Origin: Ferrimicrobium sp.
GTDB taxonomy: Bacteria; Actinomycetota; Acidimicrobiia; Acidimicrobiales; Acidimicrobiaceae
Direction: 5' to 3'
Assembly: GCF_027319265.1 (NCBI RefSeq)
Contig: NZ_DAHVNP010000070.1
Location: 62,001-126,000, forward strand
DNA: 64,000 nucleotides
Shown here in pieces: positions 1,885 to 12,258 of this stretch. Every line of letters begins with the position of its first letter. Position 1 is the first letter of the stretch. Position numbers and translations under genes: made by a program. Under the pieces are notes generated by a model that was not told where the DNA came from, ran no database searches, and saw only the letters and a program-made list of their open reading frames with translations.

Positions 1885-1961
1885 ATTCGACCTTTACCAG
1901 GGTAAGGTCAGTTCTTGGTGAGTTTCGCAAACGTGGATGGGGCAATTTCGCAAACAGCCCT

Positions 1962-2006
1962 TGGTGGAGACGAGGGGACTCGAACCCCTGACCTCCTGCG
2001 TGCAAA
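1962..2006 (-). repeat. Distal attachment site: duplicated tRNA-Ala 3' half
   Basis: These 45 bp are identical to 8864-8908 and end with the CCA complement on the left. Beyond 2006 the match stops and no tRNA 5' half can be formed, so this is a displaced tRNA end and not a functional gene. It marks the left border of the element. Confidence 0.9.
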
Positions 2007-2114
2007 TCAGGGATACCCTGTCTTAGGGTGTCTTATGCAGTCTAACCGGGTGTATGCAAACTACCGTAACGCCAAGATATGAGCCGTTCTCCCAGTTCAA
2101 AGGTGATGACACCT

Positions 2115-2343
2115 TAGGGGCCACGGTAGGGGCCATGGAGCTTGATTTAGGTCATCGTCCATGGTTGAAAAGGTATAGGGGCCAGCGTAGGGGCCACGGT
2201 AAGGGCCACGGATTCTATGCAACGACTTGTAAACTCCCTGTTTAACGCACTGATTAGCTCGTCATCGAACCCGACCGAACTACACGTAGGGGCCACGGAG
2301 CTACTGTCGTAGGAGCTACGCAATTGTTTGCAGTTATGCGTAT
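2115..2343. repeat. Cluster of 12-bp direct repeats (probable integrase arm sites, left end)
   Basis: The unit TAGGGGCCACGG or a close variant occurs at 2115-2126, 2127-2138, 2176-2187, 2188-2199, 2200-2211 and 2287-2298, with a weaker copy at 2310-2321. Units often abut head to tail. The pair at 2176-2198 is repeated exactly at 8786-8808 near the integrase start, and CAGTTATGCGTAT at 2331-2343 recurs at 8829-8841. Repeats shared by the two ends of an integrase element are best explained as arm-type binding sites. Confidence 0.7.
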
Positions 2344-2414
2344 GATCGCCAGAGCTAAGCTCCCCCCAGCTCATGGCCTATATTGTGGTGTGAGGGTCGA
2401 GAGTCTTTCTGTTG

Positions 2415-2936
2415 TCAGTCCTGTGACGTTGGCGGCAAGCCAAGCTCAGAGCGCACTATGTTCGCGTCGTTGTTAGTGACCGAGGCCGCTTGCTCTAGCT
2501 GAGTAACCCACGATGAAAGACTAAAGACGTTAGCGCTTGTCACTGAGTTCAGTACTCCATCCATCGAACTAGCCGCGGTCGTCAGGTTGTGGAGCGCTGT
2601 CGCCGCCTTGGGGTACTTGACCGCAAGTGCATTCAACTCGTTCTCGCCTTTGGTAAGCGCTGAGTTAACAGGTGCGAGGGCCGCCGTAACCGTGCTTGTC
2701 GGCGTACTGTTCGTCCAACCGTTCGCCTGCTTGCCGAGTGCGGTGAGCGCCGAGTTCATCGGACCTATTGCAGCGGTGTAGACCTTGGCCGCCTGTGCCT
2801 CAGTCATCGCAACGGGTGCCGCGCTTGGGGTCGTTGTCTTCTTTGTTGTTGTCGTCGTAGCGCTTGATTTCGCAGCCGTTGATCCGCACGCTGCGAGCAC
2901 AAGCGCACTCGCCCCGATCATCAACAGTTTTCTCAT
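2415..2936 (-). CDS. Predicted lipoprotein, element cargo
   Basis: The ATG at 2936 (MRKLLMIGASALVLAACGS) is chosen because GGAAGGA lies about 9 nt upstream, whereas longer versions lack a usable ribosome site. The protein is 173 aa, with a signal peptide and lipobox LAAC at about residue 17, a Thr/Ser/Lys linker, and an alpha-helical Ala-rich domain. It is probably anchored on the outer face of the membrane. No enzymatic motif is visible and I do not recognise the family. It lies at the end of the element, separate from the overlapping operon. Prophage and satellite lipoproteins sometimes block superinfection, but that role here is conjecture. Confidence 0.75.
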   Translation of the reverse strand: MRKLLMIGASALVLAACGSTAAKSSATTTTTKKTTTPSAAPVAMTEAQAAKVYTAAIGPMNSALTALGKQANGWTNSTPTSTVTAALAPVNSALTKGENELNALAVKYPKAATALHNLTTAASSMDGVLNSVTSANVFSLSSWVTQLEQAASVTNNDANIVRSELGLPPTSQD

Positions 2937-3013
2937 TGTTTCCATCCTTCCCAGAGCGAGCAGACCCGCTCGACCGTCTCCAAGCATACTCTCAGGTGCC
3001 CGGGCGTGTATGT

Positions 3014-3451
3014 TCACCGCTTGTTGCGCCAAGTGCCTTCCTCAAGTTCCCTAAGTTTGCGCTCTGCATCGGCGATAAGCTCATCGACCAATTCCTCGGT
3101 GATCAACATCGGTGGCTTCGGCGGCACCACATCAAGCGCGTAGAGCTTGGCCTGGCGCTCTAATAGTCTCGCCGCGACCTCGATTGCCCGCGGTTCGCCT
3201 CGCTCTATTCTCGGCCAGAGCTTGGACAAGAGTAACCGGATCGTCGCACCTTGCTCAGTCCGCAGTAGCTCCACGTCTTTCGCTGGGATCTCTCGCAGCG
3301 CAGACGTGACCAACTCGTGAGCTGTGCTGTCCGCGCACCCCATCGCATCCGCGATATCTCGATACGTCATCCCTGTCAAGCGCAGTTCAAGCGCGCGTGC
3401 CCTTCTCTGCGCTACTTCAAACTTGGCAGCGTCTCGCTTCCCGGTGCTCAT
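3014..3451 (-). CDS. HTH protein, resembling phage terminase small subunits
   Basis: The start is ATG at 3451, which overlaps the upstream stop as ATGA. The 145-aa product has a helix-turn-helix in the first third (ALELRLTGMTYRDIADAMGCADSTAHELV) followed by a long charged helical region with RTEQGATIRLLLSKLWPRIERG and AARLLERQAKLYALD, then an acidic/basic tail. HTH followed by a helical segment is typical of small terminase subunits and related phage DNA-binding proteins, but no large terminase is encoded nearby. It is the last gene of a chain of overlapping genes. It could equally be a transcription regulator. Confidence 0.6.
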   Translation of the reverse strand: MSTGKRDAAKFEVAQRRARALELRLTGMTYRDIADAMGCADSTAHELVTSALREIPAKDVELLRTEQGATIRLLLSKLWPRIERGEPRAIEVAARLLERQAKLYALDVVPPKPPMLITEELVDELIADAERKLRELEEGTWRNKR

Positions 3452-3609
3452 TGTTCGCCCTCCCACTGTTCGGCTTCGCCACGCTCAGCATCCCGTTCCA
3501 AGCCATCGAGGAACTGCGCCCAGATCCGCTTGTGAATCGCGTCGAGCCGCTCTTGATCGCTACCGCTTGACTGGCCCCTATCTACTGGCTGGCTATCCCT
3601 ATCCTTCAT
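3448..3609 (-). CDS. Small acidic hypothetical protein
   Basis: The start is ATG at 3609, inside the last codons of the preceding gene (11-nt overlap). The stop overlaps the next start as ATGA. The product is 53 aa, highly charged, with IHKRIWAQFLDGLERDAERGEAEQW. There is no recognised domain. The overlaps on both sides argue for a real, translationally coupled gene. Confidence 0.55.
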   Translation of the reverse strand: MKDRDSQPVDRGQSSGSDQERLDAIHKRIWAQFLDGLERDAERGEAEQWEGEQ

Positions 3610-3790
3610 TTTCGACCTCCAATCGTGCACCTCTGAGTGCCTCCCAGGCCGCCGCTATCTCCGTGAACTTCTCGACAAGTTCGTAGAACTCCGCAAAGTT
3701 CACCGACTCATCAAACCGCGCTTTCTTGACTTCCACGATTGCCCGATGCGCCGCTATCTCAGCTTCCAAAATCTCCAGCTCGCTAGCCAT
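3599..3790 (-). CDS. Small coiled-coil hypothetical protein
   Basis: The ATG at 3790 is preferred because GGAGG sits 5-6 nt upstream and the start overlaps the stop of the previous small gene. The 63-aa product (MASELEILEAEIAAHRAIVEV...) is almost wholly helical with heptad-like Glu/Ala/Leu spacing, suggesting a coiled coil. Upstream in-frame starts are possible but lack a ribosome site. Function unknown. Confidence 0.55.
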   Translation of the reverse strand: MASELEILEAEIAAHRAIVEVKKARFDESVNFAEFYELVEKFTEIAAAWEALRGARLEVENEG

Positions 3791-3929
3791 TTCGGCCTCC
3801 ATACACGATCCGTAATACTTCGCGGTACAACTCGTCACGTACTTCCTTCGGCGCGGCTTGCGCTGCTCGCCAGCTGTTTAACGCTTCGCAGAACTCGCGC
3901 AACTCCGTCTCTCCGTTTGTCGTTCTCAT
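3783..3929 (-). CDS. 48-aa hypothetical protein
   Basis: Direct translation of the minus strand from ATG at 3929 gives a 48-aa ORF (MRTTNGETELREFCEALNSW ... VRDELYREVLRIVYGGRNG). A strong ribosome site (GGAGGG) lies 4-5 nt upstream. Its ATG overlaps the stop of the preceding gene as ATGA, and its stop overlaps the start of the next. Amphipathic helical character, no known family. Confidence 0.55.
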   Translation of the reverse strand: MRTTNGETELREFCEALNSWRAAQAAPKEVRDELYREVLRIVYGGRNG

Positions 3930-4282
3930 TGATCCCTCCGTGCCCTCGGTGGCCGTCCCAGCGCGCCTCTTAGGCGACTCAAATCGCCACTCGGAGCAAG
4001 TTGGGGTTTCGGTAGATTGTCCTCTTCTTCATGCACCCACACCTCGATCAGCGCATCCCACAACCACGTAGCATCGACCGGCTCAGGCAGCCCGAAAAGA
4101 TCGCGGTGATAGTTCAACACATGCGCCCACGAGTCAACCACGCTTCTCGCGAGATCAAGCGCCAGGGCTGCGATGCTGTAGAGCGTTCCCGAGGTTCCGG
4201 TTAACTTTGCCCCATGGATGGTGATGAGTTGGTACTTCTCGCATCCATTCGTGTCTTTGTCCGGATCGTAGTCAGCTTGCAT
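3926..4282 (-). CDS. Hypothetical protein in element operon
   Basis: The 118-aa product starts with ATG at 4282, overlapping the last 11 nt of the primase gene, and its stop overlaps the next start. It has a central helical region (LYSIAALALDLARSVVDSWAHVLNYHRDLFGLPEPVDA) and a basic Pro-rich C-terminus. No catalytic motif or known domain is recognised. Coupled translation with the primase suggests a replication or packaging accessory role, as inference only. Confidence 0.55.
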   Translation of the reverse strand: MQADYDPDKDTNGCEKYQLITIHGAKLTGTSGTLYSIAALALDLARSVVDSWAHVLNYHRDLFGLPEPVDATWLWDALIEVWVHEEEDNLPKPQLAPSGDLSRLRGALGRPPRARRDQ

Positions 4283-6857
4283 CGGCCAACCTCCTAGCGG
4301 CGCATGGCTTGCACAACGTGCCGGTTGAGTTGACTAGTCGCCGCCCACACTCCGCGCAATCACGCGGCTCAGGCTTTGGTTCCTTCTTGAGTTGTTCCCG
4401 TACTCTGTCTACTTGCGTTAGCTCGGTCATCTGTGCTGTCTCCTTCGTTACGTAATGGTTCATCGCTACTACTTCCTCCGTTGCTTGCTCGTTTCCGCTT
4501 TCCTCTGCAGATGTGTTGACAAACGTTGACAATGTTGACAAAGGCCTCTGACCTGCGGTTATGTCCCCATTCGGTGTTGACAAAGGTGTTGACACTGTCA
4601 ACAGTTGCTCGCCACCGCGCCAATTCGAGCCGCGCGAATCCAGGCGCTCGATGAGGCCTAATTTCTCAAGTTGCTCAGCCGCCACGTCAAAGCGAGCGCG
4701 CAGACCTCGAAACACCGACCGGTACGCATCGCGTGCGGTGAACTCTTGGCGATGCTTCGCCCACTCCCATAATCTCGTAGCGTCTCCTGAGAGCGCTGGC
4801 GCTACGTCCTCGCCGCCATACTCACGTCTGGCATGCCATGCGAGCCACTCACCAATCGCAAGCGCCGCGCCAATTTCATCGGCTGTAATGCGGCCTGCGA
4901 GGTTGCCGGTGGCCATGGCGTGGATAGTTGCCGCAATGCGCACGATACGCCCAGCCTGCTTGCCTGCCCAACCGTTCAGAATGTCACCCGAGTAGAGCGC
5001 GGTCATCTCGGACTCTATCTCATCCTTCATGGCCACGAAGAGCTGGAATGCCGCCGCGTCGAGTCTCATCGGCTCTGGCTGCTCATCTGCATAGGCTTCG
5101 CTGAATAGCGCAGTCAACCGCTCACACCAAGCGCGGCTAAGTGACTCTGGCATCTGCTCACCAAAGCCAAAGCGAACGCCAACCAATGACTCAGGACGAA
5201 CCGGACAGAGCCTCGCGAGCAACCCTCGACCTCCTGCTTCCGCGTCTCCTGCCACTTGTGCCCAAGCGCTCGGCTGGCCCATGAGCAAGAGCGGAACCCG
5301 CAGCTCAGTAACCCGAATCTCGCCCCGAGTGACACGGTGCGATGTATAGTGGCCAGCGTCGTAACCTGCGAGCAACACCTCGTAATTTGTCCCTGCCTTG
5401 TTGTAGCGTCCAAGATCACCGAAAACGCCCCCCGCCTCATCCGATACGACCGCGATGCGTGCGATGTCCTCCCCTTGCGCCGCTGCTAGCGTTTCCAACG
5501 CTTCTGCCGTAGCCTTGCTCGCCACTGCCGAGAAGCGCGCGGGCACTTGGTGCGACTCCAATCGCGCCAGTGCCTCTGCGAATGCTGTGCCACCATCTTT
5601 GCGAGCTTGATCACGCGCGAGCGCTAGTAGCTCGTGTTCAGCTTTGGTCTTGGCGATCTCATCATCTCGACCTTGGCGAGCTGCCTTCTCAGCGTCCCAT
5701 ATCGGCCCCATTGCCGCGCTTAAGACTGGTGTTTTCCGCTCCGCTGGCGGTGCGATGACCAAGAGGTGAAGCACCCCAGGCTCGCGCCAATCCTGCGTAA
5801 TCTCCACCGTCGCGCCGAGTCCGACGGGTATACCGGCCACGCCCAAAGCGGTTGCGAAGGCGAAGCCTGGCGAGACCTGGTAAGCACTCGCCAGAGCTTT
5901 AGAGTATTGACCAAGTAGGCCGGTGCTCCGCAGAATCTCGCTCAGATCTGGCTCAGGATCGTATTTGTCAACAGGTGCAGTGTCCGTGTCAACACTTTTG
6001 TCAACACCGATTTGCACTGTTTCCCCTGGTAGATCGGTTTTGTCAACGTTGTCAACGTTTGTCAACACGTCTAGCCCGCCGAGCATATCCTGCCAATTCT
6101 GAGGATGATGAGCTATCGCATCGCTCGCATCTTTGCAACCATCAGGACAGTGCAGCTCTCGCAACGTAAGCGCTCCCAAGTACCCCTGTTCCCTCAAGGA
6201 TTCAGCCACGGCCTTAGCGTGATTGCGGCCTGGTTCGTCTCGATCAGCCCAGATTACGATATCTTTGAACCCCGCTACGATGATCACACGAGAGTGGCCA
6301 GGTCGCCACTTCCCAGCGCCCGCCGCATTGCAAGTCGCCGCCGTGCCCTGCGACCAAAGAGCGAGTGCATCCTTCTCGCCTTCGACGATCACCAACGGCA
6401 ACTCTGGATTGTTTTTGATCGCCTCGGTCAGTTCCGGCAAGATGAAAGGTAGGGAGCGATCCTCGGGTGCGAGATCTTTCAAAGACCAAGCCCAGCCACC
6501 GTTGCCGTCTGGCCTGCGCTGACTGAACCCCTTCGGTTGATACCGCACCGCTTGAAACGCGAGTGAGCCGTCAGCTCTCCGGTAGTCGTAAGTCGCTACG
6601 ATTCTCTTCTCTGGCCTCGGTTTCTCCTGCTCATTGAACAAATCGCGAGCTTCCAGATCAAGAGCAGAGAGGATCGCGTCAGTACTGCATAACGCAAAGC
6701 AATTGAGCAAGACCCGACCATCTGCGCCCACCGAGACGCTGAGCGATGGGTTGTTGTCCTGGTGAGCCGGACACGTAACCAAATATCCCTCGTGGTTTGA
6801 GTTGATCTTTGAACCGTGCGCCGAGAGTGCGCCGAGAACACGGTTGAGGGCCGTCAC
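4272..6857 (-). CDS. Primase/helicase-like replication protein (CHC2-like zinc, Toprim, DUF3987 region)
   Basis: This 861-aa protein starts with GTG at 6857, overlapping the excisionase stop as GTGA. Residues 29-57 hold a C-x2-H-x20-C-x3-C zinc motif, as in DNA primases. A Toprim-like segment follows (LPLVIVEGEKDALAL near 155, and DIVIWADRDEPG near 200). From about 310 to 690 the sequence resembles DUF3987/YfjI proteins, with a degenerate P-loop-like stretch (IAPPAERKTPVLS). The C-terminus carries a second zinc ribbon (CAECGRRL ... CKPC). Such proteins prime or initiate replication of phages and satellites. Two linkers contain dense GTTGACA/TGTCAAC motifs, described separately. This is the probable replication protein of the element. 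Confidence 0.8.
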   Translation of the reverse strand: MTALNRVLGALSAHGSKINSNHEGYLVTCPAHQDNNPSLSVSVGADGRVLLNCFALCSTDAILSALDLEARDLFNEQEKPRPEKRIVATYDYRRADGSLAFQAVRYQPKGFSQRRPDGNGGWAWSLKDLAPEDRSLPFILPELTEAIKNNPELPLVIVEGEKDALALWSQGTAATCNAAGAGKWRPGHSRVIIVAGFKDIVIWADRDEPGRNHAKAVAESLREQGYLGALTLRELHCPDGCKDASDAIAHHPQNWQDMLGGLDVLTNVDNVDKTDLPGETVQIGVDKSVDTDTAPVDKYDPEPDLSEILRSTGLLGQYSKALASAYQVSPGFAFATALGVAGIPVGLGATVEITQDWREPGVLHLLVIAPPAERKTPVLSAAMGPIWDAEKAARQGRDDEIAKTKAEHELLALARDQARKDGGTAFAEALARLESHQVPARFSAVASKATAEALETLAAAQGEDIARIAVVSDEAGGVFGDLGRYNKAGTNYEVLLAGYDAGHYTSHRVTRGEIRVTELRVPLLLMGQPSAWAQVAGDAEAGGRGLLARLCPVRPESLVGVRFGFGEQMPESLSRAWCERLTALFSEAYADEQPEPMRLDAAAFQLFVAMKDEIESEMTALYSGDILNGWAGKQAGRIVRIAATIHAMATGNLAGRITADEIGAALAIGEWLAWHARREYGGEDVAPALSGDATRLWEWAKHRQEFTARDAYRSVFRGLRARFDVAAEQLEKLGLIERLDSRGSNWRGGEQLLTVSTPLSTPNGDITAGQRPLSTLSTFVNTSAEESGNEQATEEVVAMNHYVTKETAQMTELTQVDRVREQLKKEPKPEPRDCAECGRRLVNSTGTLCKPCAARRLADAS
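4515..4602. repeat. Iteron-like GTTGACA cluster within primase gene, first cluster
   Basis: GTTGACA occurs at 4515-4521, 4525-4531, 4534-4540, 4576-4582 and 4588-4594, and an inverted TGTCAAC at 4596-4602. The last two copies form the perfect palindrome GTTGACA-C-TGTCAAC. The copies are read in different codon frames (as LST, FVN and TVS), so a protein-level repeat alone does not explain them. Confidence 0.6.
5966..6066. repeat. Iteron-like TGTCAAC cluster within primase gene, second cluster
   Basis: TGTCAAC occurs at 5966-5972, 5987-5993, 5999-6005, 6041-6047, 6050-6056 and 6060-6066, in the orientation opposite to the first cluster. Here the coding strand reads them mostly as Val-Asp. Density and orientation suggest protein-binding iterons or a replication origin for the element. 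Confidence 0.6.
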
Positions 6858-7057
6858 GGCTGCGCCTCGCTACTGAGATTCGCAATGAAGGCCGCAAGGT
6901 CTGAGGACCTGATAAGTCTGCGGCTCCCAATGTAGACCGAGCGCAAATCTCCGCGGCTCAGAATGCCGTATAGAGTGGCGCGTGACAAGCGCAGAGCCTG
7001 GGCGGTTTCGGAGACGGTTAGCAGCTGATCGAATGGTTGATATTCGTTTTCGGACAT
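6854..7057 (-). CDS. Excisionase-family HTH protein
   Basis: This product of 67 aa (ATG at 7057) or 73 aa (GTG at 7075, directly abutting an AGGAG) contains a MerR-like/HTH_17 domain: LLTVSETAQALRLSRATLYGILSRGDLRSVYIGSRRLIRSSDLAAFI. The order of helix-turn-helix, then a wing with GSRR-I, then a terminal helix is typical of Xis/AlpA-like recombination directionality factors and regulators. It is the first gene of the minus-strand operon and overlaps the primase start, so it probably controls excision and the operon. Confidence 0.75.
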   Translation of the reverse strand: MSENEYQPFDQLLTVSETAQALRLSRATLYGILSRGDLRSVYIGSRRLIRSSDLAAFIANLSSEAQP

Positions 7058-7141
7058 GAGGTTCCCTATGCCCACCTCCTAGCCAAAGCCAATCGGTCGA
7101 GCGATAGGGTCCTTTTGGGGCCCGCAAACTTTCGTTGTCTA

Positions 7142-7147
7142 TATAAT
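7142..7147 (+). promoter_or_regulatory. Possible -10 element in divergent intergenic region
   Basis: TATAAT sits 43 bp before the zinc-ribbon gene start on the plus strand, inside the 7058-7189 divergent region. There is no good -35 at the usual distance, so this is only a candidate. Confidence 0.3.
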
Positions 7148-7189
7148 AGCATCCCAACTAGATCATTTGTACGCGATTAGACTATAGGG

Positions 7190-7651
7190 ATGAGCCTCAA
7201 GTGCCCGAAGTGCAGCACCACGTTAGCGAGGGTGCGACCGATCAAAGACGGAATAGTCGAGGTGCGAACGAAGCGCATGCAGCGCCGTCCAGCCGATACG
7301 TACCGCGCTGAGGGTCTGCTCGTATTTGACAATGAGGCATCACGTACTCAATGGCAAGCGATCACTGAACCGACGCGCGTCGAGTGCTGTGGCATCGTTC
7401 AGACCGCATCGCCCGCAGCGCTCCTAAAGCGCGCGGCTTTGGCTCCCTACGTCAAACCTCGATGGATGACCAAGATTGAAGCACTAATAGCCGCCGCCGA
7501 TGGTGAGCTGGTTCACGTGAGCATCAACGAGTCAACAGGTGATCAGCGAACCCTGAGCGCCGGGATCGTCGACCGCGAAGAGTCCGCCAAAACTTATCGG
7601 GACGGGGCCGCGGCCCCGCTGTTCATGCCCTCAGCTTCCCAAGAGCCTTGA
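7190..7651 (+). CDS. Zinc-ribbon hypothetical protein of the element
   Basis: This 153-aa protein starts MSLKCPKCSTTLARV, has a second Cys cluster (VECCGIVQ near residue 66), then a helical C-terminal half. The spaced CxxC and CCG pairs look like a zinc ribbon. It is the only plus-strand gene of the element, divergent from the excisionase operon and overlapping the integrase end by 21 bp on the opposite strand. It may act as a regulator, as inferred from this position. No family recognised. Confidence 0.6.
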   Translation: MSLKCPKCSTTLARVRPIKDGIVEVRTKRMQRRPADTYRAEGLLVFDNEASRTQWQAITEPTRVECCGIVQTASPAALLKRAALAPYVKPRWMTKIEALIAAADGELVHVSINESTGDQRTLSAGIVDREESAKTYRDGAAAPLFMPSASQEP

Positions 7652-8767
7652 GCTAGAGTCGATCGCCACTCGCAAATCCTCAACTGCCAAATGAGCGTAG
7701 ATGGTGTCGGTGACCGCGGTCGAACTGTGACCCAGCACCCGAGAGATTACTGGCATCGGGACACCTTGACTCAACAACAACGACGCGGCCAAATGCCGCA
7801 ACTCGTGTAGGTGTCGCTCTCCAAGGTCTGCACTTCGAGCGAGACGCGCGAACTTATGGCTCACCGTATCTGGGTCGAGCGCCTTGCCAAAATCACTCAA
7901 GAACATATAGCCGGACTCCGCGCGAATCCCTAAGCTGAGCAGGCGTTCTACCTCTGCCCTCTGTGTGACCCTGTGAGCCTCTAGGACCGCCGCCAGCGGC
8001 TCCGGGACAGGTATAACCCTCTGACTTCTTGCAGTCTTGGTGGGTCCTTCTACGACGCTATCCCACGCCTTCGAGCGAGACTTGTTGATCGTGAGGGTGC
8101 GTGTGGTGGGGTCGTAATCGTCCCAACGCAGAGCCAGCGCCTCACCTCGCCGAAGCCCGAGAGTAGCCAACGTAAGGTACAAAGGCCCGAGGCGTTCTGT
8201 CTCGCAAAGCCTCTTGAATCTCTCGATCTGAGCTGGTGTCCATGCGGTTAGCTCCTTGCGTTCCTGCTTGATCGCCCGCGTGCCCTTTGCAGGATCAGTT
8301 ACGAGCAGTCCTTGGCTCACTCCCCAGGCGCAAGCGGCCCTGAGCACGGTGCGCGCAATCTGGCGCGAGCGCGCCGAGCCCTCAACCTCCCCGATAGCAC
8401 GATCAAGAGTCGCTGAGCGAAGCTCCGTTAGCTTTGCCCCTGAGATAGGTGTAAGCTTTTCCACCGCCCATTTGTATTGACCTTGCGTAGCTTGTGCCAC
8501 GTCAGGTAGTTTCACCTCAAGCCACGTGGCCAAGAGATCGCCCAACGTCGCGGGTCGAGACTTAGCTAGTCCTTTGTCCCTCTCAGCGCGAAACTCCTTG
8601 AGCGCTTGCTCGGCTTCTTGCTTGGTGGTGCATACGCGCGTCCGCGTCCTCGACTTGCCAAGCTCATCTGTCCATCGGAGCACGGCTCGATACTCGGTCG
8701 GCGAGTAATACTTGACCGATCCCATCCCTCTAGCCCTGCGCGTCTCTGGCTGTCTCATGCTGTCCAT
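7631..8767 (-). CDS. int: Tyrosine recombinase (site-specific integrase)
   Basis: This 378-aa protein has an N-terminal arm-binding region (GSVKYYSPTEYRAVLRWTD), a SAM-like core-binding domain (about 72-160) and a catalytic domain. The catalytic residues are visible: Arg206 (LGLRRGEA), Lys244 (GPTKTARS), His321 and Arg324 (HELRH), His347 (VLGHSS) and nucleophile Tyr357 (TIYAH). All are intact, so the enzyme should be active. The start lies about 100 bp from the intact tRNA-Ala, with arm-type repeats between. It mediates insertion at the tRNA 3' end. Confidence 0.95.
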   Translation of the reverse strand: MDSMRQPETRRARGMGSVKYYSPTEYRAVLRWTDELGKSRTRTRVCTTKQEAEQALKEFRAERDKGLAKSRPATLGDLLATWLEVKLPDVAQATQGQYKWAVEKLTPISGAKLTELRSATLDRAIGEVEGSARSRQIARTVLRAACAWGVSQGLLVTDPAKGTRAIKQERKELTAWTPAQIERFKRLCETERLGPLYLTLATLGLRRGEALALRWDDYDPTTRTLTINKSRSKAWDSVVEGPTKTARSQRVIPVPEPLAAVLEAHRVTQRAEVERLLSLGIRAESGYMFLSDFGKALDPDTVSHKFARLARSADLGERHLHELRHLAASLLLSQGVPMPVISRVLGHSSTAVTDTIYAHLAVEDLRVAIDSSSRLLGS

Positions 8768-8785
8768 TGTACCCCAGGAATTCGT

Positions 8786-8841
8786 TAGGGGCCAGCGTAG
8801 GGGCCACGAAGCCTCAGATTCTCCTATCCAGTTATGCGTAT
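8786..8841. repeat. Right-end arm-type repeats
   Basis: TAGGGGCCAGCG at 8786-8797 and TAGGGGCCACGA at 8798-8809 match the left-end pair at 2176-2199. CAGTTATGCGTAT at 8829-8841 matches 2331-2343. They lie between the integrase start and the attachment core. Confidence 0.7.
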
Positions 8842-8863
8842 AGCGCTCTGAACTGGGGTTATA

Positions 8864-8939
8864 TGGTGGAGACGAGGGGACTCGAACCCCTGACCTCCTG
8901 CGTGCAAAGCAGGCGCTCTTCCAGCTGAGCTACGCCCCC
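8864..8939 (-). tRNA. tRNA-Ala(TGC)
   Basis: The minus strand folds into a full cloverleaf: acceptor GGGGGCG/CGTCTCC, D-arm GCTC/GAGC, anticodon stem with loop containing TGC, T-arm GGTTCGAGT, and an encoded CCA. The last 45 nt are the attachment core shared with 1962-2006, so the integrated element supplied the present 3' half. Confidence 0.95.
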
Positions 8940-9207
8940 TTAATCCGACCATGATGATTTGAGTGGACCTCAAGAGTCTAACCGTCTCTCAGAAAGTGCC
9001 GACTGATCTTAGCCGCTTAGATCGAATGAATCATTATCGCTCAGCACTCCGCCTCAACTATCGTACTTGGATACCGCCGCTGGCGCCTTGAAGCAGAAAC
9101 GTAAAGAGACTCATCTGTAATAAAATTTTCATAAAATCTGCCTCTAGTGCCTTCTGGTTCAGATAGTATCGACCCAACATTGGTCGCAGTGAAGCCAAGG
9201 GGGGCAA

Positions 9208-11751: not shown

Positions 11752-12258
11752 ATGGATGACGCGACCATCGAGAAGATTTCAATTTCCATTCTGACTGAGA
11801 CGGACTGGCAGCTATGGAGGTCTCTCCGTCTGCAAGCGCTTGCCGACGCCCCCAACGCTTTTGGATCCACCCTTGAACAATGGAGTGGGAAATCCGATCA
11901 AGAATCACGGTGGCGGGACCGCTTGCGTAACTCTGCTCTCGCCTTGGTCTGTCTCTTTGACCACCAACCCGCCGGGATGGTGGCGACAACGACGCCGACC
12001 GCTGGCGAGACAGAACTGGTGTCCCTATGGGTCTCTCCCGAATTCCGGGGTCGAGGAGTCGGTGATCGGCTGATTGGTGAGGTATTGCGCTGGGCGAGCG
12101 AACGAGATCTCGCCCAAGTGCGTCTCTACGTCCGCGAGATGAACCGGGCGGCCATTGCGCTCTATGAACGACATGGATTCGTTGACACCGGTGAGCGATG
12201 CGACGAGATGGATGGCATGTGCGAAGTGAGCATGCTCCGGGCTCTGCGCCAATCATAA
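11752..12258 (+). CDS. GNAT-family N-acetyltransferase
   Basis: This 168-aa protein has the GNAT fold markers: LVSLWVSPEFRGRGVGDRLIGEVLRWA (acetyl-CoA-binding R/Q-x-x-G-x-G/A loop) and LYVREMNRAAIALYERHGFVDTGE. The early segment ISILTETDWQLWRSLRLQALADAPNAFG is typical of the RimI-like/toxin-resistance branch. The substrate is unknown. There is a 49-bp gap from the formamidase gene and no strong promoter, so co-transcription is possible. Confidence 0.85.
   Translation: MDDATIEKISISILTETDWQLWRSLRLQALADAPNAFGSTLEQWSGKSDQESRWRDRLRNSALALVCLFDHQPAGMVATTTPTAGETELVSLWVSPEFRGRGVGDRLIGEVLRWASERDLAQVRLYVREMNRAAIALYERHGFVDTGERCDEMDGMCEVSMLRALRQS

Follow-up and report, generated by a model that had tools for sequence, protein, structure and literature searches.

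PICI/SaPI-type satellites encode an integrase, an excisionase, a pri-rep module that is sometimes fused and sometimes a small terminase subunit (TerS), carry no structural genes, and use an iteron origin with two iteron sets, located after rep, with the sets around an AT-rich region (as described in part of PMC6092414). The phage-inducible chromosomal minimalist islands (PICMIs) of Vibrionaceae have few genes and lie beside fis, PICMI115 being 6,110 bp long; their search model has four parts, among them a PF00589 integrase, a PF12728 HTH_17 protein and a PF13148 DUF3987 primase, and DUF5906 is also named (sections of PMC10803314). Among actinobacterial phage satellites, MulchRoom and MiniFlayer of Streptomyces have genes for the capsid and for both terminase subunits and no primase, according to portions of PMC10690885. 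Phage P4 combines its primase gene, alpha, with two iteron sites annotated outside that gene, ori1 and crr (NC_001609). The ori1 site holds six type 1 repeats, a 43-bp gap separates the repeat groups in both sites, and crr lies just beyond the 3′ end of the primase gene. One P4 site, ori2, is said to lie inside alpha, and the P4 helicase is of the SF3 type, as opposed to the DUF3987 type of the element described below. In origins of the lambda O type, iterons occupy the coding sequence of the initiator, between its domains, but they form a single cluster and the initiator is not a primase-helicase.

Here, we describe a 6,902-bp element inserted at tRNA-Ala(TGC) within the window, the whole 64,000-nucleotide stretch of DNA that was analysed (Table 1). 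The observation of an integrated element is confirmed. It is bounded by a 50-nt att repeat, the first 45 bp of which are free of mismatches, in agreement with the 45-bp duplication of the original prediction, whose limits of 1962–8908 were correct to within the repeat and whose intact tRNA-Ala is indeed present. Sister genome G004 retains the uninterrupted site: the joined flanks align to it unbroken over 3,195 bp at 92% identity. Lack of homologous elements with the same gene order would have spoken against the prediction; a search of sister genomes found one (L010), in the same tRNA and with the conserved genes in the same order. Six of the seven putative arm-type sites lie at equal att offsets in the two elements, namely the first four on the left and the sites at 8786 and 8798 (78 and 66 bp, respectively), the fifth left site being 11 bp away in L010. 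The arm site is absent from the G019 element and the partial G023 element.

Table 1. Features of the integrated element and its insertion site, in window coordinates
Feature	Position	Strand	Details
attL	1962..2011		copy of tRNA-Ala 3′ end, 50 nt, 49/50 identical to attR; empty site in sister genome
Putative integrase arm-type sites TAGGGGCCA (n=5)	2115..2295	+	starts 2115, 2127, 2176, 2188, 2287
Putative lipoprotein cargo	2415..3032	-	lipobox-like start by eye
TerS homologue (small terminase subunit), 150 aa	3014..3466	-	phrog_645 4.4e-23
ORF, 60 aa	3448..3630	-	homologue in 0/6 loci searched; no family match
ORF, 79 aa	3599..3838	-	62% over 55 aa vs sister element
ORF, 48 aa	3783..3929	-	homologue in 0/6 loci searched; no family above cut-off
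ORF, 118 aa	3926..4282	-	34% over 104 aa vs sister element
Primase-helicase, 861 aa	4272..6857	-	CHC2/Toprim, DUF3987 helicase, putative winged helix, CxxC tail
Iteron array 2	4515..4602	-	spacings 8,12,42,9,10
Array-2 spacer motif ACCTGCGGTTATGT	4551..4564	+	complement encodes ITAG; within 13-nt run identical in all three elements
Iteron array 1	5966..6066	-	6 GTTGACA copies, one strand; spacings 10,9,42,12,21
Array-1 spacer motif ACCAGGGGAAACAG	6017..6030	-	
HTH_17 excisionase / AlpA-type protein	6854..7075	-	PF12728 3.8e-11; TIGR01764 4.2e-9
Small CxxC protein, divergent	7190..7651	+	ORF; zinc-ribbon-like by eye
Tyrosine integrase, 378 aa	7631..8767	-	Phage_integrase E 2.8e-20
Putative arm-type sites TAGGGGCCA (n=2)	8786..8806	+	starts 8786, 8798
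attR core	8864..8913		within intact tRNA-Ala
tRNA-Ala (TGC), intact	8864..8939	-	

The predicted integrase-excisionase-primase module is supported by family matches for all three proteins. The integrase is 89% identical to that of the sister element, and the Arg, HxxR, His and Tyr positions, which we take to be the catalytic residues, can be seen by eye, as the original prediction had held. The small HTH protein exceeds the cut-off of the NCBIfam excisionase domain TIGR01764. In the 861-aa protein, the Toprim and DUF3987 domains are matched; its CHC2 part has a weak Pfam match (E 0.077), yet falls within phrog_6088 coverage. The model of the putative winged helix is poor (mean pLDDT 54) and unfit for fold search. 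The divergent CxxC protein is 38% identical over 84 aa to a protein of locus L015 and found no family above cut-off in profile searches; it and the HTH_17 protein are the only regulator candidates, with no Stl/Rpr repressor recognisable. The true start of the lipoprotein is probably inside the called ORF, and no counterpart was detected in the sister element. PADLOC gave one weak match among nine proteins. No structural, lytic, relaxase or large-terminase family was matched among the 10 ORFs scanned, as had been predicted for structural genes.

The earlier view that this gene set fits no recognised family was too strong. The element contains the three PICMI model parts named above (PF00589, AlpA PF05930/PF12728 and PF13148), with no match to DUF5906, and shares the small gene number of PICMIs (sections of PMC10803314). 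It differs from them in its insertion site, the att core lying within tRNA-Ala rather than beside fis, in its actinobacterial host, and in encoding TerS, the word 'terminase' having 0 occurrences in the main text of PMC10803314. Like PICIs, it has a specific attachment site, its own integrase, a pri-rep module and no lytic or structural phage genes, and its TerS and pri-rep layout is PICI-like (compared with part of PMC6092414). With respect to MulchRoom and MiniFlayer, its gene content is the reverse (portions of PMC10690885).

Homology and synteny support the 150-aa protein as TerS-type, as first suggested. In all three places examined (Arthrobacter phage Bolt007, Streptomyces phage mu1/6 and one genome of the same order), terL directly follows the TerS homologue, and in the relative from G019 a tail-protein match adjoins TerS. 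A Foldseek search of the TerS model against PDB returned nothing at E 0.001 or better. Against BFVD, eight matches reach 0.001, one of them named as a terminase small subunit and others as HTH or uncharacterised phage proteins; their query-normalised TM-scores are just 0.31–0.37, so that family likeness is supported but a matched fold is not. VIA-align gave two phage G20c small terminases with Z of 4.6 and 4.3, under the tool's informative level, and PDB sequence searches gave no decisive match.

The presence of TerS without TerL, together with the lack of structural families in the 10 ORFs, supports a phage satellite, and the best reading is one close to PICIs and PICMIs. It is also conceivable, if unlikely, that the locus is an integrative mobilisable element or plasmid remnant moved by conjugation or by the integrase alone, with the TerS-like protein acting as a regulator. 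The TerS family carries an HTH, 14 of its 18 phage records lack the name terminase, and the search for a helper phage proposed in the original prediction found none: TerL families PF03354 and PF03237 were not found in the element's own genome, nor were relatives of its TerS among the IMG/VR candidates scanned. The placement of the TerS homologues directly before terL in 3/3 places and the lack of a relaxase family in the 10 ORFs speak against this reading. Of the two identities first proposed, phage satellite is supported and mobilisable plasmid-like element is not.

The most unusual feature of the element, absent from the original prediction, is a pair of iteron arrays within the primase gene. 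Two inter-domain linkers hold six or seven iterons each, array 1 between the Toprim and helicase domains and array 2 between the putative winged helix and the CxxC tail, so that the stretch coding for helicase and winged helix is enclosed by the two arrays. The general spacing is ~9, 9, 42, 12 and 20 bp, with the order reversed in array 2, where five copies are opposite in orientation to those of array 1. The outermost copy of array 2 departs from this mirror symmetry, being 8 bp away instead of ~20 and on the other strand. These arrays are the only clusters in window positions 1901–9000 with at least five exact 7-mers in 130 bp; no cluster corresponding to a PICI origin after rep was found outside the gene in that range.

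Could the repeats merely reflect the protein or its promoters? Inter-domain linkers are commonly of low complexity, and TTGACA is the sigma-70 -35 hexamer, both of which would suit repetitive linkers or -35-like boxes. We regard this as quite improbable. Iterons are found on both strands and in two or three frames, and with synonymous codons shuffled, 0/300 shuffles reach the observed 12–13 copies in each of three genes. Moreover, the iteron of a related element, AGCGATG, is unlike a -35 box, and a promoter scan of the element gave two matches, compared with 2.1 expected.

The arrangement shares with P4 two iteron sites with P4-like spacing and a primase-helicase gene. It differs from the annotated P4 sites in lying inside the gene, in its iteron, and in AT content, which is 42–57% in the array segments versus 60–65% in P4 segments; an AT-rich melting region is therefore not evident in these segments. 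The same two traits, in-gene location and no evident AT-richness, set it apart from PICI origins (part of PMC6092414), and having two opposed arrays sets it apart from the lambda O type. We found no paper on iteron arrays within a primase gene, in a search that covered subscription literature, including the P4 origin papers, thinly, and we do not claim that such arrays are absent from print.

Relatives show how the arrays change. A single-primase scan of genome contigs and viral contigs gave no relative and was outperformed by an alignment-based search. A class-wide search gave matches in 8 of 395 genomes, own genome included, at E 1e-20 or better, with a full-length match in the own genome only. 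Both arrays are present in three elements only (window, G001 and G019), all from one bacterial family. Candidate boundary marks of the G019 element are a 14-bp repeat and, beside int, a tRNA-3′-like stretch, a second copy of which was not found in the contig. The iteron is GTTGACA in the window, AGCGATG in G001 and ATTGACA in G019, and the layout is kept: array 1 has spacings of 9, 9, 42, 12 and 19 in G001 and 9, 9, 42–44, 11 and 20 in G019, where in both cases some copies switch strand, and array 2 has 20, 12, 43, 9 and 9 in both, with one extra copy each, against 12, 42, 9 and 10 for the reverse copies of the window. The array-2 spacer contains the sole run of at least 11 aligned nt identical in all three primase genes, and ACCAGGG, part of the array-1 spacer, is retained in G019 in a different reading frame. 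A swap of the whole inter-array segment between the window element and G001 is not clearly supported by their identities (helicase 61% and putative winged helix 48%, compared with 68% before the segment and 63% beyond it). In a shuffle test over 135 of 150 loci (15 frames were too short), 15 loci exceeded all 30 shuffles in copy number; several of these excesses stem from CG-rich low-complexity motifs and were not counted as arrays.

Alternatively, the element's TerS could bind the arrays as packaging (pac/cos) sites, in which case they would not be an origin of replication. TerS is conserved along with the element, and terminases can bind repeated sites, such as the R sites of lambda cosB (part of PMC6092414). 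On the other hand, arrays of similar geometry near the P4 primase are annotated as ori and crr repeats, and TerS is 66% identical between the window and G001 while the iteron is wholly different, an argument weakened because the primase is likewise 58% identical. On balance, packaging sites seem improbable.

We infer instead that the initiator gene itself houses a bipartite origin of the P4 type. On the strength of the att repeat and the empty site, the integrase and HTH_17 protein would integrate and excise the element at the 3′ end of tRNA-Ala. The CHC2/Toprim-DUF3987 protein would then replicate the excised circle, its putative winged helix probably binding the iterons of both opposed arrays, which, judging from their geometry and DNA-level constraint, may form the bipartite origin. 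The element's TerS would direct its DNA into particles, with TerL and capsids supplied by a tailed helper phage. We consider this overall account, a ~6.9-kb satellite with an in-gene origin and TerS-directed packaging by a helper, probable. Since the arrays flank the segment coding for their reader domain, origin and initiator could be passed on or swapped together. Slightly favoured, in our judgement, is the broader proposal that the primase-helicase ORF makes up a whole replicon on its own, its frame doubling as a bipartite origin, and that lineages switch the iterons of both arrays together, keeping spacing and spacer motif through each switch.

If true, actinobacterial phage satellites would possess a self-contained, exchangeable origin-initiator cassette, and TerS-bearing, PICI/PICMI-like satellites would extend into an actinobacterial lineage. 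The finding points to DNA that serves both as protein code and as origin, in which iterons are replaced wholesale and geometry stays fixed. As the gene exists in three natural versions, initiator-origin specificity and its change would become directly testable.

The att duplication, a 50-nt direct repeat (49/50 identical) enclosing 6,902 bp, and an intact tRNA-Ala(TGC), the 3′ part of which is the right repeat copy, bear out the original prediction of an element in tRNA-Ala. Comparison with other genomes supports integration. When the two element flanks were joined and used as an empty-site query, an unbroken match was obtained in the sister genome G004, starting at window 1904, crossing the tRNA and ending at 12000 (3,195 bp, 92%). 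Two further close genomes, G002 and G003, carry the tRNA and give short matches spanning the junction, and the primase match is absent from both. A repeat with GTTTCGCAAAC-type ends adjoins the tRNA, with further copies elsewhere in these genomes; in G004, by eye, it comes after a transposase-like stretch. The DNA to the left of the element is thus a possible hotspot for insertions.

Features of the element and its relatives, with domain matches and iteron spacings
Feature	Location	Details
Repeat with GTTTCGCAAAC-type ends	window 1904-1961; L202:912-967; L210:1280-1390	adjoins tRNA
Direct repeat copies	window 1962 and 8864	
Putative lipoprotein ORF	window 2415-3032	between TerS and attL
Small terminase homologue (TerS), 150 aa	window 3014-3466	
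Extra TAGGGGCCA copy	window 3572	opposite strand
Primase, 861 aa	window 4272-6857 (-)	DUF3987, E 3.4e-67; Toprim, E 1.3e-6
Array 1	window primase, between Toprim and helicase	window 10,9,42,12,21; G001 9,9,42,12,19; G019 9,9,42-44,11,20
Array 2 (spacings reversed)	window primase, after putative winged helix	window 12,42,9,10; G001 and G019 20,12,43,9,9 (one extra copy each)
Divergent small CxxC protein	window 7190-7651	between int and xis
HTH_17 protein		HTH_17, E 3.8e-11; also TIGR01764 excisionase domain
Integrase		PF00589, E 2.8e-20
G001 CxxC-bearing ORF	L010:12629-13228	same int-xis place
G019 element region	L011:16756-18494	also encodes RusA-like resolvase
G023 partial relative	L015:13933-17059	beside tRNA-Ala(GGC)

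A homologous element in a sister genome, for which the original prediction had called, is present in G001, in the same tRNA and with conserved genes in the same order (identity 89% for integrase, 66% for TerS and 55–59% for primase). With the own genome counted, primase matches occur in 6/60 close genomes, 43/396 genomes of the phylum and, at E 1e-20, 8/395 of the class; across these searches, only G001 and G019 encode a further near full-length primase. TerS matches occur in 7/98 genomes and are strong only in the own genome, G001 and G019. Loci L125 and L126 seem to duplicate the contigs of the G001 and G019 elements, whose lengths they match, so the independent full-length relatives number two. 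The partial relative in G023 has an integrase 56% identical, and its contig terminates within the primase.

The listed genes are all on the minus strand, save one divergent gene. No similarity was detected between the CxxC proteins found between int and xis in the window and G001, so this slot is variable. The putative lipoprotein, not detected in the G001 element, is possible cargo. Both the window and G001 elements carry seven terminal copies of the nonamer TAGGGGCCA, five towards the left end and two towards the right, with first copies 153 bp (left) and 78 bp (right) from att; six of the seven offsets from att are identical between the two, and one differs by 11 bp. It is absent from the G019 element and the partial G023 element, and the window has one extra copy. 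We infer that these copies are integrase arm-type sites.

In the window primase gene, GTTGACA or its complement occurs 12 times, always within one of two linkers. The same two linkers hold 13 copies (6 and 7) of AGCGATG in G001 and of ATTGACA in G019. The outermost copy of window array 2 is misplaced, 8 bp away and on the other strand. Synonymous-codon shuffling (300 per gene) produced at most 7, 8 and 6 copies in the three genes, versus 12–13 observed, and the copies occupy two or three reading frames. The array-2 spacer includes ATA ACC GCA GGT in all three genes, inside a 13-nt run that is their only stretch of at least 11 identical aligned nt; over the whole gene, 43 of 283 identical residues, these four included, share a codon. 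ACCAGGG of the array-1 spacer is retained in G019 in a different frame. In the window, each spacer motif starts 10 nt from a triple repeat, and the two face one another. From these sequence patterns, we take the iterons and spacers to be constrained as DNA rather than as protein code.

In the P4 record, ori1 is annotated with six type 1 repeats (spacings 10,11,22,43,10), and crr repeats (9,43,18,14) lie just past the 3′ end of alpha. A strict detector for P4-like arrays within 1.5 kb of a primase, applied to 116 of 133 loci (some near-identical to each other), found arrays at 9/116 versus 0/580 Markov-randomised controls. Two are the G001 and G019 relatives; among the other seven, five arrays lie at or beyond the gene's 3′ end, one (L130) inside near that end and one (L101) upstream. 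A 3′-side array beside such primases is thus a known kind of arrangement. Looser inspection revealed iteron clusters of varying spacing in the C-terminal coding part of L149, L231, L037 and L229. Since no N-terminal-linker array comparable to array 1 was seen in these four genes, L018 or L131 (at approximate coordinates), the in-gene pair has so far been seen only in the window, G001 and G019. Viral contigs and genome records from several bacterial groups (L082, L099, L148, L149, L156) also show P4-like arrays with element-specific sequences close to CHC2/Toprim primases; the array of L148 carries the P4 repeat GGTGAAC.

In P4, protein binds at the origin repeats. By analogy with the P4 annotation and SaPI Rep, the primase would bind the two arrays and open DNA there; its winged-helix domain is weakly predicted. 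The C-terminal domain of SaPI Rep is described as recognising iterons directly downstream of its own gene (PMC7581432).

The 150-aa TerS matches phrog_645, labelled 'RNase E'. This label is probably wrong, because all three members with neighbours examined precede terL: the homologue lies directly before terL in Bolt007 and mu1/6 (both phages whose neighbourhoods were examined), and in a same-order genome it overlaps the large subunit gene by 4 bp. A homologue is present in 18 phage records, four of which name it terminase small subunit. The TerS model is fair (mean pLDDT 77); it has an HTH followed by long helices and matches BFVD phage proteins, some so named, with low TM-scores. Searching the own genome with PF03354 and PF03237 found no TerL, while positive controls were detected (PF03237 is present in 2/60 genomes, the own genome among those searched); the element therefore has TerS without TerL. 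In the G019 element, the protein adjoining TerS matches a minor tail protein C-terminus and, speculatively, may affect the helper's tail.

PICMIs and PICIs are the closest known systems (PMC10803314, PMC6092414). PICMIs share an integrase, an AlpA-type protein and DUF3987 with the window element (PMC10803314), which departs from their fis site and from the downstream origin of PICIs (PMC6092414). Because of these two differences, we file the element, judging from sequence, as a putative new variant of phage satellite, a member of neither group.
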